Of a stretch of DNA of 24,905 nucleotides, positions 3,531-23,750 are shown piece by piece. The notes beneath the pieces are model-generated. The model worked only from the letters and a program-made list of their open reading frames with translations. It was not told where the DNA came from and did no database searches. The stretch lies in the IMG/VR virus record IMGVR_UViG_3300019755_000014, positions 1 through 24,905 of that record. One strand, given 5' to 3'. Made by a program: the position numbers and the translations under genes. The stretch is from a virus. Position 1 is the first letter of the stretch. Each line of letters opens with the position of its first letter.

Positions 3531-3563
3531 TATGTCTCCGACATTGATGTCGGAGACATACTA
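3528..3563. terminator. Bidirectional hairpin between convergent genes
   Basis: A perfect inverted repeat has 17-bp arms (3528-3544 and 3547-3563) around a 2-nt centre, with the core GTCTCCGACAT / ATGTCGGAGAC. Its two outer TAG triplets are the stop codons of the + strand gene and of the Dam-like gene on the - strand. The stem is long and includes GC pairs, and the position between convergent genes fits a shared terminator. Neither side carries a clear run of T, so intrinsic termination may be weak or Rho-assisted. Confidence 0.65.
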
Positions 3564-4352
3564 ATAATTCATAATATACAACTCACAAACTGTCTTTTTT
3601 TGCTTGTGAACATTGCTCCCAAGTGTATAATCAAACTTATCACTTTCCACTATTTTATAATCTTTATATAACCCCCTCACAAATTCACAATCGTTGTAAG
3701 ATAATAGAAACCTACCCTTTAACCCTTTTAAGCTCTTGTGTAGCCTTTTGTGGTCATTTAAATCAAAGGTTTTCTCATTTTTATAATAACTCTCAGTTCC
3801 AACATACGGAGGATCACAATAAAAGAATGCATCTTCACGATCATAGTTTGATATTAACTTTTGAAAGTCCATATTTTCAATCGTAACCATTTTTAATCTG
3901 TCGGACCATTTAGTAAAATCTTTAAATATGTTTTTTGGCTTTCTACTTTTACAAGCCATTGCAAAGTTATCTCCCTTGCTTCCAAAACTCATCTGTAACT
4001 GATAGAAATAAAAACAAGCCCTTTCTACATGGTCACGAGGTTCTATCAATTTATATTTTATATCTGTAAAGATCACTCTACTGATAAACAATTCATTTAA
4101 ATATTTTTCCAATAATAAAGGATTATCTCTTATGCACCTATGCAGGTTAATAAGATCATTGTTGAAGTCATTTGCAACCTCTCTATATTTTCCATGTGTT
4201 GGAACTTCTTTTGCATACAGGACATTTAAAGCCCCTCCAAATACTTCAACATATAAGTTGTGATCATTTGGTATTAAAGAAACAATTTGTTTTGCTAGTT
4301 TTGATTTGCCACCTACCCAACCATGTGGTGGTCTTAATTTACTTGTATTAAT
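3561..4352 (-). CDS. dam: DNA adenine methyltransferase (Dam-like, D12 class) with ATT start
   Basis: A 263-residue class D12 N6-adenine methylase that transfers a methyl group from S-adenosylmethionine to adenine, GATC in the best-known members. The N-terminal SAM region reads PPHGWVGGKSKLAKQI then YVEVFGGALNVL. The catalytic DPPY is at about residues 180-183 in FFYCDPPYVGTESYY. The conserved N-terminal region lies upstream of the first ATG (4112), so the real start must be further up. The frame is open back to a TAG just before AGGAGG (4358-4363), and the only codon at the right distance is ATT at 4350-4352. I therefore propose a rare ATT start. The gene has its own promoter region with a repressor-like operator (4366-4384). 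Likely roles are protection from host restriction or timing of replication or expression. The first-ATG version would lack the SAM-binding motif and be inactive. Confidence 0.8.
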   Translation of the reverse strand: MNTSKLRPPHGWVGGKSKLAKQIVSLIPNDHNLYVEVFGGALNVLYAKEVPTHGKYREVANDFNNDLINLHRCIRDNPLLLEKYLNELFISRVIFTDIKYKLIEPRDHVERACFYFYQLQMSFGSKGDNFAMACKSRKPKNIFKDFTKWSDRLKMVTIENMDFQKLISNYDREDAFFYCDPPYVGTESYYKNEKTFDLNDHKRLHKSLKGLKGRFLLSYNDCEFVRGLYKDYKIVESDKFDYTLGSNVHKQKKTVCELYIMNY

Positions 4353-4365
4353 ATTTTCCTCCTAT

Positions 4366-4384
4366 TGTATAATTAAATTATACA
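4366..4384 (-). promoter_or_regulatory. Operator/promoter of Dam-like gene, same palindrome as repressor operator
   Basis: A 19-bp palindrome TGTATAAT-TAA-ATTATACA. The same two 8-bp arms occur with a different 3-nt spacer at 19315-19333 between the repressor and the Cro-like gene. The - strand copy contains TATAAT placed as a -10 box just upstream of the ribosome site of the Dam-like gene. Binding by the CI-like repressor would cover that -10. The shared sequence is directly seen; the regulatory link is inferred. Confidence 0.7.
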
Positions 4385-4419
4385 TTTATTAAATTCTTTT
4401 TTGGTATAGTTCCAAAGCT

Positions 4420-4447
4420 GAGAGTGGGAGGTAGAAGAATCACTCTC
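4420..4447. terminator. Hairpin after the late operon
   Basis: Arms GAGAGTG (4420-4426) and CACTCTC (4441-4447) form a 7-bp stem with a 14-nt loop. It sits just after the last gene of the tail/lysis operon (stop at 4464) and before the Dam promoter on the - strand. There is no strong T-run, so it is a plausible but not definite terminator that separates the two - strand units. Confidence 0.35.
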
Positions 4448-4463
4448 GGTCTTGGTTAATCTA

Positions 4464-4697
4464 TTAAGAAATAAACTTTAACCCTCTTTGTATTTCGATA
4501 CAATCAGATTTAATCGCTGTCACTTGTATAAATGATCCCTCTTTATAAATTACTGTTTCAATCCCATGATCTGCCATAAGATTAACTGTATATTGAAGTT
4601 TCATATCTTTGATTGTTCCCTCTGCCTTTTCAGGAACTACTACAGTTTTACCATTCTCAATCTCTTCAATGACACCTGTTTCTATTACTTTTTTCAT
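4464..4697 (-). CDS. Hypothetical protein, 77 residues
   Basis: Not recognised. The start MKKVIETGV at 4697 is preferred because AGAAAGG lies just upstream; a longer in-frame version would overlap the previous gene. The protein is small, soluble and probably beta-rich (GVIEEIENGKTVVVPE, SFIQVTAIKSDCIEIQRG), with no signal peptide. It is the last gene of the long - strand late operon, directly after the small exported protein at 4700-5029. Confidence 0.5.
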   Translation of the reverse strand: MKKVIETGVIEEIENGKTVVVPEKAEGTIKDMKLQYTVNLMADHGIETVIYKEGSFIQVTAIKSDCIEIQRGLKFIS

Positions 4698-4699
4698 AT

Positions 4700-5029
4700 T
4701 TACCTTTCTTCTATATATCCACAATTTATGTCATGCCACTCTTCCTCATCAAAGTCATGATCAGACAAATACCAATAATAATTGTGTATATCGTTTAGAG
4801 TTGTTAATGCATTAGCACACATTAATTCATTATCATGTTCACAATGATAATTATAAGAGTCATAAGCTCGTTCTATTGCTTCATCTAAAGCACTTTGATA
4901 ACCATTGTAAAACTTTACATTTTCAATATTATCCCCATCAGGATGAGAAGTAGTAACAATACATATTTCACTATTATTGTTTGCTACCAATGAAAGGGAT
5001 AAAACCATTAAAAAAAGAAATGATCTCAT
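4700..5029 (-). CDS. Small exported acidic protein with cysteines
   Basis: Not recognised. The 109-residue product begins with a typical Sec signal (MRSFLFLMVLSLSLVANNNS), with a likely cleavage after VANN or nearby. The mature part is strongly acidic (DHDFDEEEWHD) and has four cysteines (CIV, CEHD, CANA, CGYI), which could form disulfides in the periplasm. The start overlaps the endolysin stop by 4 nt (ATGA), so it is co-translated with the lysis gene. A periplasmic lysis accessory or immunity role is possible; nothing in the sequence proves it. Confidence 0.6.
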   Translation of the reverse strand: MRSFLFLMVLSLSLVANNNSEICIVTTSHPDGDNIENVKFYNGYQSALDEAIERAYDSYNYHCEHDNELMCANALTTLNDIHNYYWYLSDHDFDEEEWHDINCGYIEER

Positions 5030-5526
5030 GTTCTCTCAACCCAACCTGCAAAAAATTTCTCTTGTGAGTGGTCATACTCTACTATGTCGTAGTATCTTTT
5101 GAATTGTAAGCCATTAAGAACTTTTAATAGTTTTCTATTATCAACTTTTCTTATTGCTTTTAATGTCTTATCCCCTATCCAACCATCAACAAGAAGATCA
5201 GGATATAAAGTTTCTACTCTATTTAAAAGATTAAGAGCCACTTGTAAGATTTTACGACCTATATTAATACCCATATTGACACCTGTATCAAACACCTCAA
5301 TAGCGATAATCTCAGGTAACTTTTCTAAATCTCCCTTTTGTGTATTCCAAAAGTCATTTAAATAAATTTCCCTTGCATCTACTAAAGAAAGAGATTTAAT
5401 ATCAACATTTGGATAAGACCGTTTAGAAATTCCAAACTTAGTCTCCCCACCCTTATCATCAGGATCAAATACATAACCACCCTCATGACCGATTACAGTT
5501 TCAAAAGCTTTATAAAACTTATCCAT
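5026..5526 (-). CDS. Endolysin, GH108 N-acetylmuramidase
   Basis: A 166-residue peptidoglycan hydrolase of glycosyl hydrolase family 108, the phage muramidases that cut the glycan at N-acetylmuramic acid. The hallmark HEGGYVFDPDDKGGETKFGIS lies at residues 14-34; Glu15 is the expected catalytic acid. The C-terminal half resembles the peptidoglycan-binding domain 3 that usually follows (LLVDGWIGDKTLKAI at about 107-121). There is no signal peptide, so a holin would be needed for export, and a holin-like gene begins this operon at 18025. In a tail-encoding operon it would lyse the cell to release particles. Confidence 0.88.
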   Translation of the reverse strand: MDKFYKAFETVIGHEGGYVFDPDDKGGETKFGISKRSYPNVDIKSLSLVDAREIYLNDFWNTQKGDLEKLPEIIAIEVFDTGVNMGINIGRKILQVALNLLNRVETLYPDLLVDGWIGDKTLKAIRKVDNRKLLKVLNGLQFKRYYDIVEYDHSQEKFFAGWVERT

Positions 5527-5546
5527 AATCTACCACCAACACACAA

Positions 5547-5819
5547 TTAAAGCTCTTGAGCTTTTGAAGAACTCGCAACTTCTTTTTTTTTGTCTTTTTG
5601 TCGCTCCAATTCTTCTTTTACAGTTGTACGAGCTTTATCATAAGTCACTACAACTTTATCAAGAACCTCTAACTTTTCATTCTCAACAGGTAACTCAACA
5701 TAAACAGTCTTAGCACCTTTATAGATAACCTTTCCTGTCATATATGCTTTTTCACTCATGCACCCACTCATTGCAACAGCCATCATAATACCCATTGCTA
5801 AAACTTTTAAAATCTTCAT
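5547..5819 (-). CDS. Small lipoprotein (possible outer spanin)
   Basis: A 90-residue protein with a lipoprotein signal: basic start MKILK, hydrophobic stretch, then AMSGC with Cys20 as the likely lipidated residue. The mature part is charged, ending in a Lys/Glu-rich likely helix (KEELERQKDKKKEVAS). The ATG overlaps the stop of the DUF1353 gene, and the endolysin follows 21 bp later. A small lipoprotein next to an endolysin suggests an Rz1-like outer-membrane spanin, but it is not embedded in an Rz gene, and o-spanins are usually more proline-rich, so this is only an inference. Confidence 0.65.
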   Translation of the reverse strand: MKILKVLAMGIMMAVAMSGCMSEKAYMTGKVIYKGAKTVYVELPVENEKLEVLDKVVVTYDKARTTVKEELERQKDKKKEVASSSKAQEL

Positions 5820-6238
5820 TATTTACCCTTTACTGTGATTTTTACAAACTTCTTAGCTTTTTTAACTTTAGACTTTTTATGTTTTTTCCATACAAAGCCA
5901 CCACCAAGCCTTACAGCTCTATACATAACTCTTCTTTTAAACCAACCCACCCCTTTGAGCTTTAGAAGCTCCAAGAAGATAAGATCACACTCTTTACGAG
6001 GTAAAGCCTCAGACATATATAAAGCATCATGGATGATAGCTCCAAAGATAGTCTGCTCCCCATAAGAAGAGAATATATTTTGAAACACTTTAGGAACACT
6101 CGCTCCATCAGTTTCCCAACCACCTGAAACCTCAATTAAATATTTTTTATTTTCATAAGCTACAGGATCAAGCACTAAATAAGCAAACTCTTTATCCTCA
6201 ACTTTCTCTAAAATGATTTTTCCTCTAAATTCCTGCAT
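5819..6238 (-). CDS. DUF1353 phage protein
   Basis: A 139-residue protein matching the DUF1353 family common in tailed phages. The family pattern is visible: GWETDGASVPKVF (about residues 40-52), IIHDALYMSE (about 68-77), RKECDLIFLELL and a final RRVMYRAVRLGG. The conserved Asp/His residues suggest a small hydrolase-like or metal-binding fold. It usually occurs near endolysin or tail genes, as here; its role is not established. The C-terminus is very basic (KKHKKSKVKKAKK). It sits between gpD and the lipoprotein with near-zero spacing. Confidence 0.78.
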   Translation of the reverse strand: MQEFRGKIILEKVEDKEFAYLVLDPVAYENKKYLIEVSGGWETDGASVPKVFQNIFSSYGEQTIFGAIIHDALYMSEALPRKECDLIFLELLKLKGVGWFKRRVMYRAVRLGGGFVWKKHKKSKVKKAKKFVKITVKGK

Positions 6239-6252
6239 ACAATTTCCTTTTA

Positions 6253-7188
6253 TTAATTTTGAATTTCCACATCAGTAACCCAACCATCTGACCTAGACCA
6301 AGTATGAGTACAACTCTCAACAGAATAAACTCCATCATCTTCACTCTCATAAGTACCTGTAACATTTACCTTTGTACCTGCATATAAAGCTATTCCTCTG
6401 TTAGAAAAAGAACCTTGAACCGTTCCCTTGTTTGCTTGAAGTAATTTTGCTTGAGCTTTTATTTTTGCATCTCTATCATCTTTAAAAGCACCCTTAACCT
6501 TTAAGCATGGTGTACCATCGCCATAAGTAACGACTAAAAGCTTTCCTTGATCCACATCATGCCAAGAACACTCGCACGATTGATAATATGTTTTAGTGGT
6601 ATGTTTAATAGATGAGCTTTCGCAATGTTCAATATTGATAGTAGTTTCAGGCAGAGTTTCATCATCTTTATTTACAAAATAAATGATGTCATTTTTTATA
6701 CTGAATGTTACATTATATTGCTTGGCTATTCTCTCTAAAAAGTTAATGTCAGTTTCATTAGTTTGTAGTAGTGATTTAATAGTAGGATCAAGTGTTTTAA
6801 ACTTTACACTATGACCAAGCCTTTTAGCCACAATATCCACTATATTAGATAACTTAGTATCTTTATAATTGTTTGATAGTTTTTCCTTTTGTTTCTCATT
6901 AAATTCAACACCTGTAGCACTAAAAGACAATGTTTTATTATTGCTCCTAGTAACTGTTTGAGTATGAAATAAACCACATTCTAAACTCTCTTTTAACTCA
7001 TCATTTACAAATGATTTAAAAGTAAGTTCTAATTTAGTATTTGGTGCAGGTCTTGGAAAGCTTGGAACAACTTTTAAACTTACTTTATCAGACTTGCTTC
7101 CTGCACAGTCATTAAAAGATAAACTTAATATATCCTCTATATTTACAAGCTCTCCACCGATCTTAAGTTCAACAGTATCTTTTACCAT
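6253..7188 (-). CDS. D: P2 gpD-like tail/baseplate hub protein
   Basis: A 311-residue relative of P2 gene D (late control protein D, gp27/VgrG-like fold), which forms the trimeric hub of a contractile tail baseplate and accepts the gpV spike. Visible family marks include an N-terminal strand-rich region opening ELKIGGELVNIEDIL, TQTVTRSNNKTLSFSATG, and DINFLERIAKQYNVTF at about residues 144-159, the conserved segment of this family. Length is normal (P2 D about 387, many relatives 310-350). It overlaps gpX by 7 bp, keeping the P2 order U-X-D. Confidence 0.87.
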   Translation of the reverse strand: MVKDTVELKIGGELVNIEDILSLSFNDCAGSKSDKVSLKVVPSFPRPAPNTKLELTFKSFVNDELKESLECGLFHTQTVTRSNNKTLSFSATGVEFNEKQKEKLSNNYKDTKLSNIVDIVAKRLGHSVKFKTLDPTIKSLLQTNETDINFLERIAKQYNVTFSIKNDIIYFVNKDDETLPETTINIEHCESSSIKHTTKTYYQSCECSWHDVDQGKLLVVTYGDGTPCLKVKGAFKDDRDAKIKAQAKLLQANKGTVQGSFSNRGIALYAGTKVNVTGTYESEDDGVYSVESCTHTWSRSDGWVTDVEIQN

Positions 7189-7412
7189 AATGGCTCTCTT
7201 TTCTTAGATACAGTTTCCTGCTCTGTGGCTTGATCTTTGATGATAATAGGAAGTTGTATTGTTGTACCACTTTTTAAGTCCATAGACTTATCAAATAAGT
7301 GTTTATTGTGAGCTATAACTGTATTTAGATGTTCTAAGCTTCCATAATGCTTTAAAACAATTAAATCAATTCTATCTCCTGTATTAGACTCATAATTACT
7401 GTAATTCATCAA
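7182..7412 (-). CDS. X: P2 gpX-like tail protein (LysM-like)
   Basis: A 76-residue protein of the phage tail X family, a LysM-like fold. The pattern TGDRIDLIVLKHYGSLEHLNTVIAHN (given in parts: GDRIDLIVLKHYG, then VIAHN) and SGTTIQLP near residue 52 is characteristic. P2 X is 67 residues. It probably acts at the baseplate or tail hub. Its start lies inside the end of gpU (17-bp overlap), as is normal for this compact operon. Confidence 0.85.
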   Translation of the reverse strand: MMNYSNYESNTGDRIDLIVLKHYGSLEHLNTVIAHNKHLFDKSMDLKSGTTIQLPIIIKDQATEQETVSKKREPLW

Positions 7413-7803
7413 AACTCTCCTCTAAAGAAAGATTGTAAGTTTGTACTGTGAACCTACCATCATCTAAAAAATGCTCCTCAGTAGTATTTAGACTATTTAT
7501 AACTACATCTAAATCATGCTGTAAGGTAGTGAACCTGATCGGATCACGAGCGATAAGATAATCTTCCAATGGTTTTAATGCATCTGTAGGTTGAACAACC
7601 AACACTCCATTAAGTGTGATTTTTCTTTCATATCCCCCACTATCAGTTAAAAGCTTTTGACCCTTTATCGGTGTAAAGCTCCCATGTGTTGCAGTTAAAG
7701 ATTGAGATATTTTTTTATATTTGTTTTTATCAATATAAAAAGCAAACTCTCCGAGCTTACCCATCTCCATACCATTGGTTAAACTATCTAATGTATCAGC
7801 CAT
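7396..7803 (-). CDS. U: P2 gpU-like tail protein
   Basis: A 135-residue member of the gpU family of Myoviridae tail proteins. Recognisable parts are LGEFAFYI at the start, then SFTPIKGQKLLTDSGGYERKITLNGVL (conserved Gly-rich core), and RDPIRFT. P2 U is about 160 residues. It is thought to act in tail-tube termination or baseplate assembly. It starts directly after the stop of the nuclease gene (7804), so an unrelated gene has been placed between tape measure and U compared with P2. Confidence 0.85.
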   Translation of the reverse strand: MADTLDSLTNGMEMGKLGEFAFYIDKNKYKKISQSLTATHGSFTPIKGQKLLTDSGGYERKITLNGVLVVQPTDALKPLEDYLIARDPIRFTTLQHDLDVVINSLNTTEEHFLDDGRFTVQTYNLSLEESFDELQ

Positions 7804-8325
7804 TTAAAACCTTTTATAAATCCCTCTTTTTTCTAAGTTAGCCTCACGACTAAGCTCTAAAAGATAAGCTTTTCTTTGCTTATGTATCTTATTATTTGGA
7901 TAGTACACAGCCCAACCCTGTCTTACTAATTGATAGTTTAAAACCTGAATCCATACAAGCTCTCTATCGTATTTATCTTTACCATACGAGTGATATTTAA
8001 CTGTTTTCCCTAAATATCTTTTAGAAACAAAATCTTTAGCTTTAAATCCAAGACTAATCACTTTTTTAACTGTATGACTATATTTATCTTTATGCTTTGG
8101 ATTATTTGGATGGATATTTTTTAAAGTCTCCAATTGTTTGAATACCCTGTGATTAAACTTTGTTTCAAAAGTATCAATTGCAATAAGTCTAGCTTTAAAC
8201 TTTTTCCCACCTTTTTCCTGTAAAAATAGAGTGTCTCCATCTTCAACATAAACAACCTTTGCTTCATCCCAATTATTGGCAAATAAACCACTAACTAAAA
8301 GTAGTACCATTAACATTTTTTTCAT
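7804..8325 (-). CDS. Exported thermonuclease (SNase family)
   Basis: A 173-residue staphylococcal-nuclease-like enzyme that cuts DNA and RNA with calcium. An N-terminal signal peptide (MKKMLMVLLLVSGLFAN) points to export. The active site is complete by motif: VEDGDTLF (Asp29, Asp31), ARLIAIDTFETK (Arg46, Asp51, Glu54) and YDRELVWI (Arg121), matching Asp21, Arg35, Asp40, Glu43 and Arg87 of the S. aureus enzyme. A 20-25 residue Lys/His-rich insert at about 60-85 is extra. It lies between tape measure and U in the late operon, where P2 has no gene. It could degrade DNA on lysis or be a passenger gene; whether it is carried by the particle is unknown. Confidence 0.85.
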   Translation of the reverse strand: MKKMLMVLLLVSGLFANNWDEAKVVYVEDGDTLFLQEKGGKKFKARLIAIDTFETKFNHRVFKQLETLKNIHPNNPKHKDKYSHTVKKVISLGFKAKDFVSKRYLGKTVKYHSYGKDKYDRELVWIQVLNYQLVRQGWAVYYPNNKIHKQRKAYLLELSREANLEKRGIYKRF

Positions 8326-8348
8326 TCTTTTTTTCCTTTGTATTGAAT

Positions 8349-10556
8349 TTAAGATGCATCTTCTAAAGATGTATCCATTTCCTCATATTTGATCTCTTTT
8401 TGAACTCTGATAAATTTCTCTTTTAAATCCTCATAGTCCACCTTTCCATCTTTAGCCTGTACATTAATAGTTTGAGTGATATTTTGAGTAACTGGCTTAT
8501 TGTTGTTGGTGCTGTTATTTTGCATAGTGTTTTTATGCTCTGTGATTGTTTGAGCAGTTACATCAGATACAGACTCTAAAGGAACTTTAGGGATACCCAC
8601 CTCTTTTAGAGAAGAAGTTGTTAAGGTTTTCTTATAGTCCGTATTATTAACAGGTATGTTATTTAAAAGCTTTGGTTTCTTAAGAGTATTTTCTTTTTTA
8701 TCATCAGAACCCCAACTAAATAAACTTTTAGTTTTAGACCAAAATCCACCCTCTTTTTTATTACCTGCAGTATCGCTTTTTTTATCGTTATCAGATCCAA
8801 AACCTAAAAAGCTTTTAACCTTATTTGCAACTGCAAATATCTTTTTAAACTTTTCATCAATCCAATTAAAAACAGATACAAATGGAGATTTAATTGCAGT
8901 TACAATATTAGTCCAAATTTGACCTGCTTTATTTTTCAAGTTATCCCAATTTTTATATAAAGCAACACCACCTGCTATAAGTAAAGATATACCACCCACA
9001 ACTGCAAGAACAGGAAGAGATATAAAACCAATAGCAGTAGCAACTCCACTAGCTACAAGACCAAACCCTGCAAGAGCTACAGAACCAACAATAAAAGCAG
9101 AAGCTAAACCAAACACCCATTTAGATGCATTTGGATATTTTGTTGTAAATGCTTCAATACCACCTGCAACAGAAGTTAAACCATTTGTAACCCATCTTAT
9201 TGTTGGAAGCAGTCCTGTAGTTGCACTAATACTAAGCCCCTCCATTGCAGAGCCTAAAAGTTTAAATTGTCCTGCTGTAGTTTGTAATTGAATACCTGCT
9301 ATTTTTGAAGCTGATCCTTTATAATTATTTACTACATCTAAATATTTATTTAATGCACCACTTCCACTTTGTTCTATAAGTTTATTAATTCCTGCTGCAG
9401 GTTCAGTTCCAAACACTTTTTTAATGAAACCTAATCTATCTCCTGAACCCATATCAGCAGTAGCTTTAGCCACCTCTTTTAGAATAAAAGGCATACTTCT
9501 AATATTTCCCTGTGCATCAAGAGCAGAGACTCCTAATTGTTCTAAAGCTTTTCTTGCTCCACCTGTTGGACTAGCAAGTCTTAAGATCATTGATTTAAGA
9601 GTAGTACCTGCCATTGATCCTTGAATACCAATATTTCCTAAAAGACCTGCCATTGCAGAAGTTTCTTGTAAGTTCATCCCTGCTGTTTTGGCTACAGGTG
9701 CGACATACTTCATTGTATCTCCAAGCATTCTCATATCTACATTCGCAGAAGTGATTGTTTTTGCCAATACATCAGATACATAACTCATTGCACTCATACC
9801 ATTTATTGTTTGAGCAGGATCAATATTAAAACCACCCATAATATTAGAAGCAATATCACTTGTAGTTGCTAGATCAGTTGCACCTGCAGTTGCAAGAGAT
9901 AAAAGACCAGGCATTGCAGAAATTGTTTGTTTTGCATTAAACCCTGCCATTGATAAGAACTGCATACCATCAGCAATTTGAGAACTTGACCACTCAGTTG
10001 TTTTACCTAAAAATAAAGCTGTTTGATTTAACTGTTTAAACTCTTCATTAGTTGCACCACTTAAAGCTTTAACACGACCCATACTTGCTTCAAATTGAAT
10101 ACTTGCTCTAAATGGTAAAGCTATCATTGTTGCCATTCCTACAGCACCAACAACAGAACCTGCACCAACTGGCTTAGACATAGTTCTTTTTTGAGCATTA
10201 GTTCCTGACTTTAAATTCTCAGCAGTTTTTTTAGTCCAAAATGCTACTTGCTTTGCATCTTTCTCAATAGCTGTCATATCTTTTCTAGCTTCTTTTAAAG
10301 ATGTTCTACTCGTTTTTACATCAAGTCTTATTGGATTAGCTGATATTTTTGCAGTTTGACTTCTAATGTGTCCTAAGTGACCCTGTAACTGTTTTACATT
10401 TCTATTTAATGTACCAAACTTAGTAGCTCTTAATAAATCGGCTCTTGTTACTTTTGTAGCATAGGTATGAATACCTTTAACACTTGCTTGAAGAAAGTTT
10501 GAACCCTTTATGGCAGGATTCCACACCATATTAAGACTAACAGAACCTAAACCCAT
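8349..10556 (-). CDS. T: Tail tape measure protein
   Basis: A 735-residue tape measure protein, which sets tail length and passes through the tail tube. The N-terminal third has a PhageMin_Tail/TP901-type domain (FEASMGRVKALSGATNEEFKQL and later MAGLLGNIGIQGSMAGTTLKSM). A hydrophobic, glycine-rich stretch at about residues 480-540 gives two or three possible membrane segments. The C-terminal part is Lys/Asn/Thr-rich and low in complexity. Length is close to P2 T (815), predicting a tail somewhat shorter than P2's. AAAGGGG precedes the ATG. A hairpin at 10649-10674 separates it from the HU gene. Confidence 0.9.
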   Translation of the reverse strand: MGLGSVSLNMVWNPAIKGSNFLQASVKGIHTYATKVTRADLLRATKFGTLNRNVKQLQGHLGHIRSQTAKISANPIRLDVKTSRTSLKEARKDMTAIEKDAKQVAFWTKKTAENLKSGTNAQKRTMSKPVGAGSVVGAVGMATMIALPFRASIQFEASMGRVKALSGATNEEFKQLNQTALFLGKTTEWSSSQIADGMQFLSMAGFNAKQTISAMPGLLSLATAGATDLATTSDIASNIMGGFNIDPAQTINGMSAMSYVSDVLAKTITSANVDMRMLGDTMKYVAPVAKTAGMNLQETSAMAGLLGNIGIQGSMAGTTLKSMILRLASPTGGARKALEQLGVSALDAQGNIRSMPFILKEVAKATADMGSGDRLGFIKKVFGTEPAAGINKLIEQSGSGALNKYLDVVNNYKGSASKIAGIQLQTTAGQFKLLGSAMEGLSISATTGLLPTIRWVTNGLTSVAGGIEAFTTKYPNASKWVFGLASAFIVGSVALAGFGLVASGVATAIGFISLPVLAVVGGISLLIAGGVALYKNWDNLKNKAGQIWTNIVTAIKSPFVSVFNWIDEKFKKIFAVANKVKSFLGFGSDNDKKSDTAGNKKEGGFWSKTKSLFSWGSDDKKENTLKKPKLLNNIPVNNTDYKKTLTTSSLKEVGIPKVPLESVSDVTAQTITEHKNTMQNNSTNNNKPVTQNITQTINVQAKDGKVDYEDLKEKFIRVQKEIKYEEMDTSLEDAS

Positions 10557-10648
10557 AAATACCCCTTTCTTATATATCTCTTTTTAAAGTTCCTTTAGAT
10601 CTAACATCACTATAAAAAGCGATACTTGAGAACCTCTAAAAAGAAATA

Positions 10649-10674
10649 TAAGAGGCAAGATAACCTGCCTCTTA
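10649..10674 (-). terminator. Hairpin terminator between HU and tape measure genes
   Basis: Perfect 9-bp arms TAAGAGGCA / TGCCTCTTA enclose an 8-nt loop. On the - strand the stem is followed by TATTTCTTTTT (10638-10648), a usable U-tract. It would partly stop transcription after the tube/chaperone/HU genes and reduce the tape measure transcript, a sensible stoichiometry control. The rest of the 132-bp gap holds no ORF. Confidence 0.6.
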
Positions 10675-10688
10675 ATTTAAACCACCAA

Positions 10689-11009: not shown

Positions 11010-11081
11010 AATGTATCCTTTTTGGTTTTTTGTATTTTTTACAGCCAAGCCAACCTATAAATTAATGAATTTACAGGAATA

Positions 11082-11542
11082 TTAACGATGAGCTAAACTC
11101 ATCCACTCTAACTTTTGCTTGTGTTTCTTGATTGCAACATCAAAATACTCAAGCCACTCTCTAACAGGCATCTTCTTTTGTTCATTGACTGATAAAAAGA
11201 AAAACTCTGTTATTAAGCTGTAGGCTTCTAACCTATCAGCTCTATCTCCTCCGAGTCGCACAAAAAAGATTGTTGCACCTCGTTGATCAGCATTGCATCT
11301 CCACGACTTAGCTTTTTAGCTTCATCAAGTGTTAAACCACACGATGCACTGATCTCTGCATAAACTGATTGAGATTCCTGCTTTAACAGGTTTTCATCAT
11401 CTTGACCTGTAAGCTCCTGAACAGTTACAACTGTTACATCTTTCTCAACACCTCTAACTTTAGCTTTAGCTGTCTCTCCAAATGGATAAACTCTGCTTAA
11501 AGCCACCTTTTTACTTTCATATTGAATAGTATCTTTTGCCAT
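11082..11542 (-). CDS. E': Tail assembly chaperone E+E' made by -1 frameshift
   Basis: The frame after the E gene stop is extended in the -1 frame. Shifting back one base at T TTT TTG (11261-11267) continues as VRLGGDRADRLEAYSLITEF and runs to TAA at 11082-11084, giving about 153 residues in total (P2 E+E' is about 142). The E' part is open for about 60 codons, is helical and charged, and ends before the HU gene. In P2-like phages the E and E+E' proteins chaperone the tape measure during tail assembly. The slippery heptamer is identical to the one known for P2. Production of the fused form is inferred from this match. Confidence 0.82.
11228..11542 (-). CDS. E: Tail assembly chaperone E (unshifted product)
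   Basis: A 104-residue P2 gpE-like protein. ATG at 11542 is preferred over the adjacent GTG at 11545, with AAAAGGT upstream. The N-terminal half is strand-rich (QYESKKVALSRVYPFGETAK) and the rest helical, ending SFLCDSEEIELIG. The last codons overlap the shift site for the longer E+E' form. It lies between the tube gene and the HU and tape measure genes, the same place as in P2 (FI-FII-E-T). Confidence 0.8.
   Translation of the reverse strand: MAKDTIQYESKKVALSRVYPFGETAKAKVRGVEKDVTVVTVQELTGQDDENLLKQESQSVYAEISASCGLTLDEAKKLSRGDAMLINEVQQSFLCDSEEIELIG
11261..11267 (-). promoter_or_regulatory. Programmed -1 ribosomal frameshift site
   Basis: On the - strand the zero frame reads CAA TCT TTT TTG TGC, which gives the slippery heptamer T TTT TTG in the correct phase. 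A purine-rich GGAGGAG lies about 10 nt downstream. The same heptamer drives E/E' frameshifting in P2. The shifted frame is open to 11082. Confidence 0.82.
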
Positions 11543-11563
11543 CACTCAACCTTTTATATTTTT

Positions 11564-12040
11564 TTATACATTACTGCTAAAATCAGCAGACATTGGAATT
11601 CCACCCATAACTAAGTTATAAGGGTGTCTTGTGTAAACAATTGTTGGAATATTATCCACGATCTCAGAGAACATATCCACTCTAATTTCAAATGTTCTTT
11701 TAACCTTATCTCCAACCTTTACATCTTGACCCATCTTATGAAGCTGACCCTGTGCTGTAATAACGATTGGTTTGTTTACACCATCCTCATGGATATTCCC
11801 TTTTAGAACAAAAGGAAGTCCACCTGCAATATGAGCAATAAACTCAGCACCAAGATTTTCAACTTCTAAAGTCATTTTTGGAACTTTTACAATCCCTGTG
11901 CTATCTTCATCTACTGTCTCAAATTCAAACTCAGGAGCTTTTGTGCCATCTCCTGTGTAACCAAATGTGTTTTTACCACCTACTAAAATTGACAGTCCTG
12001 TCAAGCTTTGAGCAGGTTGACCTAATCCATTTTTTTGCAT
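11564..12040 (-). CDS. FII: Tail tube protein (P2 FII-like)
   Basis: A 158-residue major tail tube protein. The family shape is visible: an opening that leads into SILVGGKNTFGYTGDGTKAPEFEFET, then VKVPKMTLEVENLGAEFIAHIAGG-like strands and a conserved FEIRVDMFSEIV near residue 120. P2 FII is 172 residues. It polymerises into the inner tube inside the contractile sheath. It follows the sheath gene by 15 bp, as in P2. Confidence 0.85.
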   Translation of the reverse strand: MQKNGLGQPAQSLTGLSILVGGKNTFGYTGDGTKAPEFEFETVDEDSTGIVKVPKMTLEVENLGAEFIAHIAGGLPFVLKGNIHEDGVNKPIVITAQGQLHKMGQDVKVGDKVKRTFEIRVDMFSEIVDNIPTIVYTRHPYNLVMGGIPMSADFSSNV

Positions 12041-12055
12041 AATTCAATCTCCCTT

Positions 12056-13246
12056 TTAAACTTCTACTGTGTAATATTCACTAGTAGCATAACCTTGAAG
12101 AACAATAGTTCTTACACCCACATTGTTTCCTGCTTTATAGTCAAGATACAAGATACCTGCAGAAATATCTGTCGATGTATTTCTATCTGACCACCAAACA
12201 TCAAATCCAACAGTTGCATTTGCTTTTTTTGATTTAAGCAAGAAAGCTTCAATATCAGCACGAGCTAGATCAAGTACCTCAGTAGTTGGTCTGTGCTTAT
12301 GTTTAACTAATGCTTTTTGTGACTCTTCATTAATAAGATCAAAGTATCTCATTGTTTCAAGTTTGTTAAATCTCGTGTCATCCGATGGAGTCTCAAAGTT
12401 ATATAAAATATTCCCCATGATCTCATCATTGATACAAAGACAACCACCTGCATTAGCGATAATATTCACATCACAAGTATCTTCCCCCTCCTCGTAGAAA
12501 AGAGGAACTTGACAATCTCCCATATTAAAGATCGTTCTATTTGCATGATCAAAACAAGTTCCAAACTCTCCATGTTTTGCATCCCAATATGCAATATGAC
12601 CTGCAACAATTGCAGAGTAAGGTTTTAAGATATATGCATCATCAAATACCGACCAAACCTTTCTATAAAAAGGTACAGACAAGTGTCTCTTAGATGCCTG
12701 TTCTTTAAGCCATAATAATGCATCAGATACATTTTCATTCTTTGCATTTGCAACTGAGATAGTTTTAGTTCCTGTAACTTGTGAGTTAAGAGCATCAAGC
12801 ACAGTATCATCATGAGTAAACCATCCACAAATTGGAAGTCTTACTTTTGTAGCATGAACAGTTTTTGCCATCTTCAATCTTGAAAGTGCATCTAAAATCG
12901 CTGTTTTGATCTCAGGATCTCCATAAAAGTCAAAATGGTCCTGCTGTGATTGTTCCTCAGTAATTTCAACTAAAGAGATAATAATTGGACTCTTCACATT
13001 TTGTAAGTGAATGTCATATAAATCCTCTCTTAAAGTTCCTGCCGACTCTTTAAATACCTCTAAAGCTTCCTCAGCATTACTAAATCTTAAAAGACCTGCT
13101 TTACTTGTATCAGCTAACTGATCTTTAATCTCATCACTTACATTTGTTAAAAATGCAGTACCAACAATCCCAATAACAGTTGTACTTGTAATAGCAACTG
13201 CTGTAGGGCTAATGTTTTTTACATCTAATACTTTAATTCCACCCAT
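12056..13246 (-). CDS. FI: Contractile tail sheath protein (P2 FI-like)
   Basis: A 396-residue tail sheath protein, the same length as P2 FI (396). It forms the outer cylinder that contracts to drive the tube into a target cell. Recognisable parts are the N-terminal handshake-type strand, TVIGIVGTAFLTNVSD, and the C-terminal DVWWSDRNTSTDISAGILYLDY with a final strand-rich VGVRTIVLQGYATSEYYTVEV. Its presence shows that the particle is contractile (R-type, myovirus-like). AAAGGAT precedes the start. Confidence 0.92.
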   Translation of the reverse strand: MGGIKVLDVKNISPTAVAITSTTVIGIVGTAFLTNVSDEIKDQLADTSKAGLLRFSNAEEALEVFKESAGTLREDLYDIHLQNVKSPIIISLVEITEEQSQQDHFDFYGDPEIKTAILDALSRLKMAKTVHATKVRLPICGWFTHDDTVLDALNSQVTGTKTISVANAKNENVSDALLWLKEQASKRHLSVPFYRKVWSVFDDAYILKPYSAIVAGHIAYWDAKHGEFGTCFDHANRTIFNMGDCQVPLFYEEGEDTCDVNIIANAGGCLCINDEIMGNILYNFETPSDDTRFNKLETMRYFDLINEESQKALVKHKHRPTTEVLDLARADIEAFLLKSKKANATVGFDVWWSDRNTSTDISAGILYLDYKAGNNVGVRTIVLQGYATSEYYTVEV

Positions 13247-13260
13247 TTTATTAATCCTTT

Positions 13261-13950
13261 CTAATCAAAATTTGGGAACTCAGGATATACTGCTTCCCTT
13301 TGTTCAGCTATTGCGTTTGTACCCTCTTGGATACAAAGATAAGCCCACTCATTTCTAACACCAATTTTCACTAACTTTTCATATAATGGCTTAACTGCAT
13401 CATCTAAACCTGATACAATCTCAGCAAGTGTTTTCCCACTAAAAAAAGAAGTTACCATTTCAACGATCTTCTTTTCTAATTCAGTCACACCAGTAGCTTT
13501 TAACTTAGTTGAAAAGTTAGCTTCCCACTTATCATCTTGTGTTTGTTTAGTTAGTGGGTATTTTGAATAAACATAATCTTCAATAGCTTGTACTTTTTCC
13601 TCAGCCTCAGCTTTTATCTTTGTTTTTGTATCTTCTACCCATTTATCTACTTCCCATTTATCAAACTGTGCAGGAACTAAAAGAGTAAAACCATCTTTAA
13701 TAGCTCCTAAATAATCAACTAAACTTTCTGTTTTATCTTCAATAGAATAAACAGTTTTATTTCTGTTATCTTCTACATATTCCCACTTATCATCATTAAA
13801 ACAAATTGTAAAACCTTTTTTAGTTTCTAAAGGTTTAATTGTCGTTGCATTTGCAGGAATTAAAAAGCTATCTTTATCAAGTGGATTAACTGCTGCATCA
13901 CTTGTAGAAAGAAACTCTTTTGTATTTTTGTCATAGTTATATACTTTCAT
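13261..13950 (-). CDS. Tail fibre-associated protein (gpG/assembly-like, DUF4376-like)
   Basis: A 229-residue protein located where P2 has G, the tail fibre assembly gene. Its N-terminal region (YDKNTKEFLS, LIPANATTIKPLETKKG, DDKWEYVEDNRNKTVYSIED) matches the common phage tail fibre assembly/fibre N-terminal pattern. A middle helix rich in Lys and Glu and a C-terminal helical region follow. It would help fold or attach the adjacent fibre, or decorate it. The combination of assembly-like N-terminus and helical C-terminus is known in phage accessory proteins; the exact role is inferred from order. Confidence 0.7.
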   Translation of the reverse strand: MKVYNYDKNTKEFLSTSDAAVNPLDKDSFLIPANATTIKPLETKKGFTICFNDDKWEYVEDNRNKTVYSIEDKTESLVDYLGAIKDGFTLLVPAQFDKWEVDKWVEDTKTKIKAEAEEKVQAIEDYVYSKYPLTKQTQDDKWEANFSTKLKATGVTELEKKIVEMVTSFFSGKTLAEIVSGLDDAVKPLYEKLVKIGVRNEWAYLCIQEGTNAIAEQREAVYPEFPNFD

Positions 13951-13959
13951 GCTTTACTC

Positions 13960-14931
13960 CTAATACTTGATGCAATACATCATTGCTATATTTCGTGGTC
14001 TAGGTGTACCAAACCAATTTGCAATTGAAGGTAATGATTGTTTTGAATAATGACCACTTGTAGAATCTCCATTTAAGATTATTAAGTCATTTGGTACATC
14101 ACTTAAATCTGGTGTTTCAAGACCAATCGTTTTTCTATTATTATGTAAGATATTTTGAGTTGTACCATTGTAAGTATCTTGATTATCATTACCTGCAATT
14201 AATGAACCTTTTTGATATGTACCAATAATACGACCTGCATCAATACCACGACCACTATCAAAACCTCTTATAAACTCCCCTCTTAAATCAGGAATATTAA
14301 AAGTTGTACTTCCATCACCTGCACCGTAAACAGTACCTATTGCATCAAACAAATCACTATAAAGATCTCTTGATAATTCAGCACCATTACACTCTAAAAA
14401 ACCATCAGGTACTACAGAAGTAGGTACTGTTATAATTGTTGATTTTGGTAAAGCTTTTGTTAAAACTTGCTCTAAATTGTTATTTTCAAGCTTATCAGAA
14501 TTTAAACTGTGCTTAGAACTCCCACTTTTAACAATATTGATAAGTATATTTTCTGCTTCTGTAATTGTGATATACTCATCTTTTTTAAACACGATTGTTG
14601 AAGCATCCCCACTAATAGTAAGTTTTACTTCCTGCTCTCCACCAATACCTGTTACAAATTTAATAGGTTGTGTTGGAACTGTACAAACTATTACATCATC
14701 ATCAGTTTGTAGTAAAATACCACTATTCCAAGATGTAAAGTTATCCTCTTTTGGGATGATAATAGAAGCTGTTAAAATACCATTAGTATCAAAGAACACA
14801 CTATGAATATCAGCTGTATAATAAAGCTCTCCATTTTCATCAACCAAACTAAATTTAGTAATATCACTAAATAATTTGTCTTTTAAAAGTTGTATTCCAT
14901 CTGCATGAGGAACTGCAACTAAACCGTCCAT
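13960..14931 (-). CDS. H: Tail fibre with tail-collar domain (receptor binding)
   Basis: A 323-residue tail fibre, placed after gpI as in P2. The C-terminal half carries the phage tail collar motif: GFLECNGAELSRDLYSDLFDAIG, then FNIPDLRGEFIRGFDSGRGID, and the final RPRNIAMMYCIKY. The N-terminal part (about 1-170) is strand-rich and would attach to the baseplate. It probably recognises the surface receptor and so sets the target range. It is short for a P2 H (669), suggesting a stubby fibre. The ATG overlaps the gpI stop by 13 bp, and AGGAGGTG is a strong ribosome site. Confidence 0.85.
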   Translation of the reverse strand: MDGLVAVPHADGIQLLKDKLFSDITKFSLVDENGELYYTADIHSVFFDTNGILTASIIIPKEDNFTSWNSGILLQTDDDVIVCTVPTQPIKFVTGIGGEQEVKLTISGDASTIVFKKDEYITITEAENILINIVKSGSSKHSLNSDKLENNNLEQVLTKALPKSTIITVPTSVVPDGFLECNGAELSRDLYSDLFDAIGTVYGAGDGSTTFNIPDLRGEFIRGFDSGRGIDAGRIIGTYQKGSLIAGNDNQDTYNGTTQNILHNNRKTIGLETPDLSDVPNDLIILNGDSTSGHYSKQSLPSIANWFGTPRPRNIAMMYCIKY

Positions 14932-15491
14932 ATTACACCTCCTGTGATGTTAAGATTTAAGCTCCCGTTGAAGCTTAGATGGTTTTTTAATTTGATATTT
15001 ATAACTGCACCCCCACTATTTGATATATTTCCTGCAACTAAAGGATATTTGACATCAAATCCCATGAATTTGCTTCTTACATTCTTAGCAGTTCTAATCA
15101 GCCTATTAGAAACAGAAAACAATCTCTCATCATATTTAGTGTCATCATTTCTTACATCTACAGAAACACCAAACTGACCTTTTTTAAATCTCTCTTTATC
15201 TTCAAACCACTCTACGAGTTGAGCATTATCAAACAGAACATTAACTGCATCTTCTACAGCTCCAACCGTTCCATTAGCTTTTTTACTAAATGTTTTAAGA
15301 TATGTTCTAGCTTCACTCTCAGCCATATTGTCAATATTTGCACCTTTGATAATTGCTAAGTGTGGTAAAAGTGAAATATTGCAAGTTAAAGGATCAATTT
15401 TTAAATCACTATAATTAACCTGTGAACGACCATCTAAAAGCTCTGCAAATTGTTGATCTTTAAGAGATGTATTTTTTGGAAGCAAACTCAT
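14919..15491 (-). CDS. I: Baseplate/tail protein I (P2 gpI-like)
   Basis: A 190-residue tail protein I. The conserved opening LLPKNTSLKDQQFAELL and the SLLPHLAIIKGANIDNMAESEARTYLK-type segment (LLPHLA at about 41-46) are typical, as is the VGAVEDAVNVLF stretch. It is a wedge component linking J to the fibre. It overlaps the J stop by 4 bp (ATGA) and the fibre start by 13 bp. Confidence 0.84.
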   Translation of the reverse strand: MSLLPKNTSLKDQQFAELLDGRSQVNYSDLKIDPLTCNISLLPHLAIIKGANIDNMAESEARTYLKTFSKKANGTVGAVEDAVNVLFDNAQLVEWFEDKERFKKGQFGVSVDVRNDDTKYDERLFSVSNRLIRTAKNVRSKFMGFDVKYPLVAGNISNSGGAVINIKLKNHLSFNGSLNLNITGGVIWTV

Positions 15492-16597
15492 ATCTGTGCC
15501 TCCCTATATGTAAAGTTAATTGATTTTATTTTGATGATCTGTTTATTTGTTGCAAGTACATCTTTAAACTCACTATTAACTTTATATACACCATCTATAT
15601 GACACTTTCTTACAAAATCAGACTGTACAAAGTCCTGACCGATAAAAAAAGAATTATTTAAATTTGCTTTGATTGTTGTATCAATCTCTGACTGTTTTAG
15701 TAAATCAAACAATTCAATATCAGCAGTAAGATCAACCTCTATAATTTCAGCAGGTAAGATATTTAATTCATCTCCAAGAGGTCGTGTATATTTTGCATTA
15801 CAATTTTCATAAGCTCTTTGGATCATTGCATCATCTACAATATCAAATGAAGCAATATAAATATTAACTTCTAATGGTTCATTGTCATTTGGGATTGACA
15901 CATCATCTATACGACTATCTGAGCTATAAACAAAGTATTTATAAGCCTCTTCACTTCCTGCAGTTGAATATTTATCATTAGAAGCAATAATTCTTAATCT
16001 GTATCTTTCATCATCTTCTTGATCAGAACCATTATTAAAAATATCAAGCTGTTTAGCTTCAAGTGAAAAAGTAAGCTCTGTCACTATATTTTCAGTTTTA
16101 ACCTCACTTTGGTAAACATACTCTTCAAGCTCTACTTTTACAAGTGCTGTTAATTCCCCTGCTTTGATGATTACATTATCAGATACAATTGCACTGTATT
16201 TATCATCATCACTATTTAAAACTAAACCTTTTGGTATCGTTATATCTGTAGTACCTGCAGTTAAAAGTTTAAACTCAAAGTTAGTGTATGGATATTCCCC
16301 TAAGTCTCTAAATACCTTTAGTTCTGCTCCTAGATTGTCTAAATCTGAACCTGTAGCAGTTGTTAAAAGTAACTGTTTGATTGTTTCGTTTTTATCAGCT
16401 TGATTGTGTAACTGTCTAAGTGTAAGTACTCTTAACTTTTTCATGTATGGATCAGATTCTAAAGGAAGCCAATCATTACCAAGTATCTCTTTAGCTAAAG
16501 CGACATTCTCAGCTAATAATTCATCAAAGCTTTTATTTTCAAACCCTGTAGGCTCTTGTAAAGAAGAAAGTTGATCTAATAAATCTTTATACATCAA
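15488..16597 (-). CDS. J: Baseplate wedge protein J (gpJ-like)
   Basis: A 369-residue baseplate J/gp6-like protein that forms the wedge ring of the contractile baseplate. Recognisable features are a helical N-terminus with ENVALAKEILGNDWLPLESDP, TGSDLDNLGAELKVFRD, the DDERYRLRIIASNDKYSTAGSEEAYKYFVYS segment at about residues 195-226, and a strand-rich C-terminus. P2 J is 302 residues, so this is somewhat long but within the family. It overlaps W by 11 bp. Confidence 0.88.
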   Translation of the reverse strand: MMYKDLLDQLSSLQEPTGFENKSFDELLAENVALAKEILGNDWLPLESDPYMKKLRVLTLRQLHNQADKNETIKQLLLTTATGSDLDNLGAELKVFRDLGEYPYTNFEFKLLTAGTTDITIPKGLVLNSDDDKYSAIVSDNVIIKAGELTALVKVELEEYVYQSEVKTENIVTELTFSLEAKQLDIFNNGSDQEDDERYRLRIIASNDKYSTAGSEEAYKYFVYSSDSRIDDVSIPNDNEPLEVNIYIASFDIVDDAMIQRAYENCNAKYTRPLGDELNILPAEIIEVDLTADIELFDLLKQSEIDTTIKANLNNSFFIGQDFVQSDFVRKCHIDGVYKVNSEFKDVLATNKQIIKIKSINFTYREAQI

Positions 16598-16916
16598 AAA
16601 CCCCTTTTATTGAATAGAATCCAATATATACATTAAAATATATTTTCCCACTACTTGCAGAACTTACATCAACTAAAGCATTTTTATAAGTCAATCTTGG
16701 ATCATGTTTACAAGCATCTTTCAAACATCTTTTAAAATCAATTATCCATGAACTGTTAAAGCTTCTATGCTTCAATTTATGAGCATCAGTTCCATAATCA
16801 GGTTTACCAATCACAGAACCCTTTGGAGTGTTAAATGCATCTATAAAACTATCCTCTGCACTTACTTGATAACCATCCATTCCAAGTGGTAAATTACTAC
16901 TTAATATTTGTATCAT
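16587..16916 (-). CDS. W: Baseplate protein W (gp25-like)
   Basis: A 109-residue gpW/gp25-family baseplate wedge protein. The segment AFNTPKGSVIGKPDYGTDAHKL at about residues 28-49 is the family hallmark (TPKGS followed by G-x-x-DYGT). The following WIIDFKRCLKDACKHDPR helix fits as well. P2 W is 115 residues. It links the central hub to J wedges. ATG overlaps the preceding small gene. Confidence 0.86.
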   Translation of the reverse strand: MIQILSSNLPLGMDGYQVSAEDSFIDAFNTPKGSVIGKPDYGTDAHKLKHRSFNSSWIIDFKRCLKDACKHDPRLTYKNALVDVSSASSGKIYFNVYIGFYSIKGVFDV

Positions 16917-17098
16917 GATGCAACCACCTTATGTGATCCATTTGATGAACCACCACTTACATTTGCTTGAACATCAGAATTAAGATATTTTTGAACAGCT
17001 TTTGCAAGTGCCTCAGCTAATTTATCGTTCATGTCAGTTTCTTTGAAACCAACTGCTTTCATTTCATCTTTGATATTTTGTTTTAGTATAGAACTCAC
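16913..17098 (-). CDS. Small helical protein between V and W, 61 residues
   Basis: Not recognised. A short helical protein (MSSILKQNIKDEMKAVGFKETDMNDKLAEALAKAVQKYL...) with a Gly/Ser-rich tail ending HKVVAS. It overlaps the V stop and the W start by 4 bp each, so translation is coupled to the baseplate genes. P2 has no gene between V and W. It may be a baseplate-assembly helper or spike-associated peptide; that is position-based. Confidence 0.6.
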   Translation of the reverse strand: MSSILKQNIKDEMKAVGFKETDMNDKLAEALAKAVQKYLNSDVQANVSGGSSNGSHKVVAS

Positions 17099-17664
17099 AT
17101 CGTAGCCTTTACAGTAGAACTTCCATTGCTACAAGGTAAACCTGTAAGATTACAGATAGAATCATCAGTTTGTACACCTGTACCACCAAGACCATTATTA
17201 ATATCTTTACTATCAATATTTACCTGTTTAGCTTTGAGGTTAGAAGTATCACACTCAGCATTTATAATTTTTGCTTTTAGATTTACATTTTTAGCAGTTG
17301 TGATCGTGATTTCACATGGAGTATCTAAAGAGATCTCTTTAGTTTTAGTATCATGTATATAAGTAGTACCATCTTCAAACTCTTTATAAAATTTATTTTC
17401 ATCTACACCTGCAGGAAGTGGAATATCTTTATAAGTAAGGTTTCTATCTACAAAACCATCTTCATTCTCTCCAAAAGGATTAAATACAATAACTTGATCT
17501 TTAATTCTTACAGGTATATGCTCCACTAAAGAAAGAGAAGCTTTTGTTTTTACAGGCAACCAATTAGTAACTCTGTTATCTACATTAACCTTTACTTCAA
17601 GCTTTTTACCACTTGATAAAGTTGTGTATCTAAACTCAGTTATTAATCCGTACTGTATATTCAT
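17095..17664 (-). CDS. V: Baseplate assembly protein V / central spike
   Basis: A 189-residue gpV-like protein that forms the trimeric spike of the baseplate. The OB-fold N-terminal region includes VNVDNRVTNWLPVKTKASLSLVEHIPVRIKDQVIVFNPFGENEDGFV (in parts: NRVTNWLPVKT, KDQVIVFNPFG). The C-terminal half is a beta-helix-like repeat region with alternating Ile/Val/Asn/Lys, and ends in the tail CNLTGLPCSNGSSTVKATM. P2 V is 211 residues and its spike tip binds iron through histidines; I see no matching HxH here. Two cysteines near the C-terminus may instead hold the tip. Confidence 0.84.
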   Translation of the reverse strand: MNIQYGLITEFRYTTLSSGKKLEVKVNVDNRVTNWLPVKTKASLSLVEHIPVRIKDQVIVFNPFGENEDGFVDRNLTYKDIPLPAGVDENKFYKEFEDGTTYIHDTKTKEISLDTPCEITITTAKNVNLKAKIINAECDTSNLKAKQVNIDSKDINNGLGGTGVQTDDSICNLTGLPCSNGSSTVKATM

Positions 17665-17668
17665 TTTT

Positions 17669-18025
17669 TTACTTTTGTTTTTGAAGTTCTAAAACTAACT
17701 GTATATTGCTATGTAGTTGATCCATTCTGTTAGCTACACCGATGTAGCACTCTTTTGTATTTGCTCGTTCAACTTCTAAAGTTTCATTTAAAAGCCCTAC
17801 AATTTCCTTATGCTGTTTTTGGCTCTCTTGGTACATAACAATAAATTCTTTTTGATTGTCAGCAGTTTTTTTAATTGCCTCTCCAAGCTCTTTATCGCTC
17901 TTTTTATCTTTTAAGATGTACCAAACTAGCAGACCTGTAACAATCAATAAAACAACCACCGTAATTCCTAAAACACCATAATCAAAATATGCACTTGCTG
18001 TCTCAGATAAAAGTTTATTTGGCAC
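17669..18025 (-). CDS. Membrane protein, holin-like, first gene of late operon
   Basis: A single transmembrane segment (VLGITVVVLLIVTGLLVWYIL) near the N-terminus is followed by positive residues KDKKSDK and a long charged coiled-coil-like tail. Positive residues after the segment suggest N-out, C-in, as in BhlA/UviB-like holins. An inner-membrane spanin is the alternative. I chose GTG at 18025 because AGGGGAT lies 5 nt upstream; a TTG at 18067 would extend 14 residues but has no ribosome site. The gene lies 4 bp before gpV and probably makes the opening for the endolysin encoded at the far end of the same operon. Confidence 0.6.
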   Translation of the reverse strand: MPNKLLSETASAYFDYGVLGITVVVLLIVTGLLVWYILKDKKSDKELGEAIKKTADNQKEFIVMYQESQKQHKEIVGLLNETLEVERANTKECYIGVANRMDQLHSNIQLVLELQKQK

Positions 18026-18036
18026 TTGATCCCCTA

Positions 18037-18161
18037 AAATATTTTTATAATAGATGTATTTTGTCAAAATGGAGATTGATTAATCAATATACTTTTTTGT
18101 AAATAGTTTTACGATACAATCGGAGATATCACATCGTTAAAAAAAGCGATAAAGGATCTAA
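18037..18161. promoter_or_regulatory. Divergent promoter region: late operon (-) and exported protein (+)
   Basis: Between the two divergent genes lies a perfect 14-bp palindrome ATTGATTAATCAAT (18075-18088). On the - strand a -10-like TATAAA (18044-18049) precedes the holin-like gene, putting the palindrome centre about 45 bp upstream of the likely start, a usual activator position. On the + strand, GATACAAT (18113-18120) can serve as -10 and AAAGGAT is the ribosome site of the gene at 18162. The 19-bp repressor palindrome is absent here, so the late operon may be controlled by another factor. Confidence 0.45.
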
Positions 18162-23731: not shown

Positions 23732-23750
23732 TATAGCCTTTTTAACTATG

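Follow-up and report, generated by a model that had tools for sequence, protein, structure and literature searches.

A headless family of hairpin-ended linear plasmids from Campylobacterota that probably encodes an R-type tailocin

Can a contractile tail without a head be the cargo of a self-replicating linear plasmid? The question is raised by a stretch of viral DNA of 24,905 bp (the window), which is the entire IMG/VR record IMGVR_UViG_3300019755_000014 and is classed there as 'linear'. A first-pass annotation made from the letters alone noticed contractile tail and lysis genes in P2 order at 3561-18067, no head or packaging gene, and a set of repressor, replication, partition and telomere genes, and it proposed a candidate tailocin on a linear plasmid. 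The analysis described here makes it probable that the window is an autonomous hairpin-ended linear plasmid of Campylobacterota, which encodes an SOS-induced R-type tailocin as its only particle module. The proposal is supported by relatives that are whole and headless, and by a working control in head-bearing prophages.

The right end of the window is a 44-nt perfect palindrome (24862-24905), homologous to palindromes found at the ends of relatives. Terminal perfect palindromes of 26-254 nt are present in six of them (G003, G006, G008, G009, G016 and G017), and a search of all the records examined for perfect palindromes with arms of at least 12 nt found none away from the record ends. Reads across a covalently closed hairpin would give such ends, and the palindrome of the window thus supports its reading as a linear plasmid with a right hairpin telomere. 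Where relatives have a sequenced left telomere, about 320-420 bp separate it from the start of the resolvase gene, versus 207 bp between that start and the end of the record in the window, so that only about 0.1-0.2 kb should be absent on this side. The completeness of the source contig, which the first-pass annotation had left to be confirmed, is therefore established on the right, where the telomere is reached, and falls slightly short on the left, where it is not. Judging by its ends, the window holds nearly all of a hairpin-ended linear plasmid.

Scans with the resolvase, the primase and the sheath as queries gathered 30 records including the window (G000-G017 and G589-G600); with two near-duplicates (G599 of G011, and G597 of G015), there are about 28 syntenic relatives. 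The common layout consists of resolvase, ParA, ParB and cargo, then the block from methylase to holin on the opposite strand, and finally the repressor, cro, the activator, the primases and a right-arm gene. The exception is G014, a 5.5-kb contig of a metagenome-assembled genome (MAG), in which D directly follows the resolvase. Two relatives, G006 (27,145 bp) and G017 (26,659 bp), are bounded on either side by telomere palindromes, which indicates that they are whole molecules. No head gene was found in either, nor in six further records that have both arms and the tail; resolvase, tail and primase occur together in these eight. Head genes flanking the tail on the same molecule, which by the first-pass annotation would have refuted its proposal, are thus missing from the whole relatives. 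Where a host is named, it is one of two MAGs called Helicobacteraceae, and Helicobacter and Campylobacter prophages supply the closest sheaths among named records (about 30% identity). The family, previously uncharacterised, would therefore belong to Campylobacterota, in relatives of Campylobacter and Helicobacter.

No open reading frame (ORF) of the window matches capsid, portal, protease or scaffold profiles. The sole terminase-like match is below the cut-off (Terminase_5, E 0.0035), and the claim that head and packaging genes are absent stands. This match concerns the gene at 19529-20080; it contains no significant stretch and covers the DNA-binding region only, and since the location of the gene next to cro speaks for a regulator, it was not counted as a terminase. 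In twelve relatives, 77 accessory proteins that have no match in the window matched 14 Pfam families, none of them a head family; against PHROGs, no head family occurs among the commonest 25 of the 52 families matched. Six-frame searches of ten element records gave no match to capsid E, gpA terminase or the phrog_2 terminase. The positive control consisted of chromosomal prophages from the same host family that have a related tail (G197 and G098 among those examined), which match capsid E, portal, gpA terminase, Mu portal and Phage_tail_S. When they were searched in six frames, capsid E and gpA were detected and the phrog_2 terminase was not; since the latter is silent in the controls too, the search relied on gpA and capsid E instead.

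The particle module (3561-18067) lies entirely on the minus strand and, according to profile searches, keeps the P2 order. Read from 3561 (E-values in brackets), it begins with a D12 adenine methylase (3561-4352; Pfam 1.1e-16), followed by lysis genes: a GH108 endolysin (5026-5526; Pfam 2.6e-21, PHROG 3e-45) and a small lipoprotein-like gene in a spanin-like position (5547-5819), which has a lipobox-like N-terminus, is kept in relatives and matches no profile. After a DUF1353 gene come the baseplate hub D (6253-7188; PHROG 2.5e-50, Pfam Phage_GPD 6e-9), the LysM-type baseplate hub X (7182-7412; PHROG 1.3e-11), U (7396-7803; Pfam Phage_P2_GpU 2.2e-10), an SNase-family nuclease whose export signal predicts that it is exported (7804-8325; Pfam 4.2e-11), the tape measure protein (8349-10556; PHROG 2.8e-108) and an HU-like DNA-binding protein (10689-11048; Pfam 7.8e-8). 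E' and E, in overlapping frames (11082-11545), match no profile and are assigned from their position, that of the tape-measure chaperone, and from their conservation in relatives. The tail tube (11564-12040) matches Pfam Phage_tube under the cut-off (7.4e-4) and is recognised by its position and its presence in 25 records. It is followed by the contractile sheath (12056-13246; PHROG 1.2e-23), a fibre assembly protein of the Tfa/G-like type (13261-13950; PHROG 6.7e-35), a tail fibre or collar fibre (13960-14931; PHROG 4.2e-41), I (14919-15491; Pfam Tail_P2_I 2.5e-13) and the baseplate wedge protein J (15488-16597; PHROG 3.3e-48). The gp25-like wedge protein W (16587-16916; PHROG 7.4e-6, Pfam 0.004) is weak by profile alone and is conserved in nearly all relatives covering its locus. 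A 61-aa ORF separates it from the spike V (17095-17664; PHROG baseplate assembly 1.7e-15), and the last gene (17669-18067), kept at the head of the operon, encodes a holin-like membrane protein with one N-terminal hydrophobic helix (PHROG holin 0.047). The P2-order tail and lysis set of the first-pass annotation is thus recovered by profiles, and E/E' and the holin-like gene by position, sequence features and conservation. One gene start had to be corrected: the methylase, which had been started at a TTG at 4112, is full length when translation runs on to an ATT (4350-4352) behind a strong ribosome-binding site, AGGAGG. Across G001, G003, G006 and G013, the apparent start of the methylase is ATT or ATA in several relatives and ATG in others.

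The fibre locus is hypervariable and is replaced in nearly every member of the family. That of G002 (L024, 12322-15902) encodes a reverse transcriptase and Avd and contains a template repeat, which differs from the fibre gene's 3' end at 17 positions, every one of them a template adenine. The retroelement of G009 (L034, 3-2747) shows 11 of 13 differences at adenines. Judged from this pattern, both are diversity-generating retroelements which target the fibre gene at its 3' end.

The genes that would maintain the element as a plasmid flank the tail module and are all on the plus strand. The telomere resolvase (207-1547) is of the ResT/TelK/TelA type: it matches Pfam PF16684 (ResT/TelK; 2.2e-11) and the PDB profiles of ResT (6.8e-7) and TelK (3.9e-5), and TelA is its best Foldseek match (E 3.6e-8). 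In tyrosine recombinases, catalytic roles are established for Arg, Lys, HxxR, His and Tyr, and these positions of the catalytic core are invariant across eight sequences. A ParA-like partition ATPase (1548-2162; PHROG ParA 7.7e-9, Pfam CbiA 9.5e-5, slightly under the cut-off) is directly followed by a small protein in the position of ParB (2162-2476), a putative partition partner which is kept in relatives and matches no profile. The replication genes encode a DnaG-like primase (20501-21658; Pfam Zn_ribbon_DnaG 1.6e-6) and a DUF5906 primase-helicase (21659-23491; Pfam 2.2e-21). The telomere, replication and partition functions that had been read from the letters are thus confirmed by domain profiles and, for the resolvase, by fold and catalytic residues as well. 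Iteron-like short repeats at 23540-23840, 3' of the primase, are a possible origin. DnaA-box-like TTATTCACA boxes at 24704-24789 adjoin the right telomere, and occur in relatives at both ends; the motif has four matches in the window, a number not above chance.

Among phages and plasmids, tblastn with the resolvase gave no match, and megablast with the whole window matched nothing beyond some 49 bp of a methylase gene from Campylobacter. Distant relatives of the resolvase, L062 (G141) and L063 (G479), are encoded on contigs of 6.8 and 10.9 kb from the same phylum. Contigs of this type carry partition, replication or transfer-type (coupling-protein-like) genes without tail genes, and G141 and G479 are probably plain small linear plasmids. 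The existence of tail-less relatives in the same phylum makes the capture of a tail by a linear plasmid as plausible as the loss of the head by a telomere phage. The cargo region of several family members (L090 (G591), 5463-11231; L029, L056 and L087) encodes SNF2-type helicase and PAPS reductase/DndC-like proteins, apparently resembling parts of defence systems.

How would the tail genes be controlled? The repressor (18605-19291, minus strand) has the helix-turn-helix and peptidase domains of the self-cleaving type (Pfam Peptidase_S24 1.3e-9, HTH_3 7.6e-6), as expected if the element has a repressor of its own, as had been claimed. Across 16 compared sequences, its catalytic Ser and Lys never vary, and a cleavage-type motif is missing from just one. 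Next to it, on the plus strand, are a Cro-like regulator (19366-19623; Pfam HTH_3 8e-7) and the gene at 19529-20080, a putative Mor-like late activator with weak matches (Mor 0.012, HTH_17 0.008), which is assigned from its position and is kept in relatives. The gap between repressor and cro contains a palindrome, TGTATAATTAWATTATACA, at 19315-19333, a probable operator; a second one, at 4366-4384 before the methylase, has an identical plan and is a possible repressor operator. Since two such matches occur in 17 of 100 shuffled sequences, it is position only that suggests an operator role.

A late-promoter motif, ATTGATTAATC, lies before the holin of the tail operon (18042-18098, minus strand), and a second copy, which forms with it an inverted pair (I1), precedes the right-arm gene (23924-23980, plus strand). 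The motif precedes both genes in several members of the family. The right-arm gene (23993-24415, plus strand) is conserved in every relative covering the locus, and the shared motif makes it look co-expressed with the tail, so its product may be a particle component. Its predicted fold has no known match, with nothing below 0.1 in Foldseek. A hidden portal was considered and rejected, because the PDB profile match (E 0.0044) splits into two domains with i-E of 59 and 3 and was put down to chance.

From these genes, the following cycle can be proposed. The plasmid would be replicated by its own primase-helicase, its telomeres would be resolved by the ResT/TelK-type resolvase, and ParA would ensure partition. 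DNA damage would activate RecA, the S24-type repressor would cleave itself, and Cro and the Mor-like activator would switch on the tail operon and the one right-arm gene. Tails would then assemble, and holin and endolysin would lyse the producer cell; the freed tails would attach to competitors through their variable fibres and puncture their envelope. We infer SOS induction, the role of the activator, particle assembly and killing from sequence.

Four observations weigh against the reading of the window as a tailocin plasmid. A tail terminator or collar gene is required for a finished tail, and none was recognised in the window; the right-arm gene may be the absent terminator, a role that its late promoter fits and for which its predicted fold gives no support. 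The HU-like protein and the exported nuclease encoded in the tail operon would have no obvious role in a DNA-free particle. The tube frame of G006 (L028) is split and its J is shortened, by either sequencing error or local decay. Lastly, the hosts are uncultured MAGs, and the binning of plasmids can err.

The nuclease leads to a first alternative, that the particle is an extracellular contractile injection system (eCIS) which delivers an effector, such as the SNase-family nuclease, rather than puncturing a membrane. In the headless family, the tail operon retains the SNase and HU-like genes, the former between the tape measure and U, and the ORFs listed for three related chromosomal prophages include no match to either. 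Moreover, an eCIS can be plasmid-borne: the antifeeding prophage (Afp) of Serratia entomophila is one (PMC10598620) and, like the window, it has the genes of a headless contractile particle on a plasmid. However, the export signal makes it more likely that the nuclease is sent to the periplasm or the medium, and no AAA+ ATPase appears among the profile matches of the window proteins (eCIS-specific profiles were not run). Unlike Afp, the window has a P2-type tail, in P2 order, a phage-type lysis cassette, bacterial-type fibres and hairpin ends. An eCIS is therefore an unlikely interpretation.

Another possibility is that the element is a satellite: it would make its own tails but rely on a helper phage for heads and packaging, and the hairpin plasmid would travel in helper capsids fitted with its tails. 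This would invert the arrangement of capsid-forming satellites, which borrow tails. The element is self-replicating and has lysis genes, and no conjugation gene was recognised, so its spread needs explaining; the HU-like protein within the tail operon fits this idea, as does the existence of head-bearing phages with a related tail in the host family. On the other hand, no neck, tail-completion, small terminase, other packaging or hijacking gene was found, Phage_tail_S being seen only in the control prophages, and gpA terminase and capsid E are absent from both named host MAGs and from G013, although these MAGs are incomplete. Such a satellite is less likely than a tailocin, and we regard it as rather improbable. 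The same low credence goes to a tail-providing satellite, which would use helper heads to spread, the reverse of capsid-forming satellites, and, in the absence of a helper, would use its tails as a weapon.

The broken tube and J frames of G006 could also mean that a telomere phage is degenerating into a plasmid and that its tail has lost its function, and defective phage-plasmids are known (PMC12977533). The ratio of nonsynonymous to synonymous substitutions (dN/dS) says otherwise. In the close pair G013/G597 it is 0.025 for the sheath, 0.095 for the tube, 0.056 for V, 0.074 for W and 0.10 for J, the tape measure being much more divergent (0.5), which points to strong purifying selection on tail genes. 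These values, mostly 0.03-0.1, and the headless layout maintained across deeply diverged members (sheath identity as low as 36%) argue against decay, which is largely refuted and very unlikely. Resolvase distances correlate with those of the sheath (r 0.58), J (0.84) and the tube (0.94), with mosaicism elsewhere. Finally, the window could be an assembly artefact or part of an ordinary telomere phage with its head genes off the contig. This would fit the left telomere not being reached and the IMG/VR class 'linear', which often denotes a fragment. It deserves almost no credence for the window, whose right end is a telomere and whose left end is 207 bp from the resolvase; for the family, G006 and G017, which come from other samples and are whole and headless, refute it.

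The tailocin plasmid, which remains the probable reading, can be compared with known systems. Like R-type tailocins (R-type pyocins), the window has a P2-like contractile tail set with fibres, a lysis cassette and an SOS-type repressor, and no capsid, portal or packaging genes. R-type tailocins, however, are chromosomal and have been described as lacking replication genes (PMC12090994), whereas the window has its own replication, partition and telomeres. It shares with the telomere phages (N15, PY54 and VHML/Vp58.5/Valp1) a resolvase, partition genes, a repressor and the state of a linear hairpin plasmid. These phages make full virions, for instance Valp1, of 43 kb, with a 60-nm head and a contractile tail (PMC11054321), whereas the members of the window family are headless and have 25-27 kb. 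Klebsiella telomere phages, which are intact siphophages, also carry an antibacterial weapon on a telomere element, but their telocins are toxin proteins of the bacteriocin type, paired with immunity partners, and not tails (PMC12042878). Campylobacterota prophages (CJIE1/Mu-like and relatives) have a related sheath and a D12 methylase beside the tail, as in the window, whereas those examined, G197 and G098, are located on large chromosomal contigs and possess capsid and terminase genes. In the open-access papers searched, no description was found of a tailocin joined with a linear plasmid or a telomere phage as one system. The element would thus work like an R-type tailocin and replicate like a telomere phage, while departing from each in one defining feature.

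Tailocins are usually viewed as domesticated, immobile loci which have lost replication. If the proposed reading is true, tailocins can be plasmid cargo, perhaps kept by the advantage that killing gives, and the spread and persistence of a headless element becomes testable. The fibre-directed retroelement present in two members would then represent a tailocin with faster evolution of its target range.

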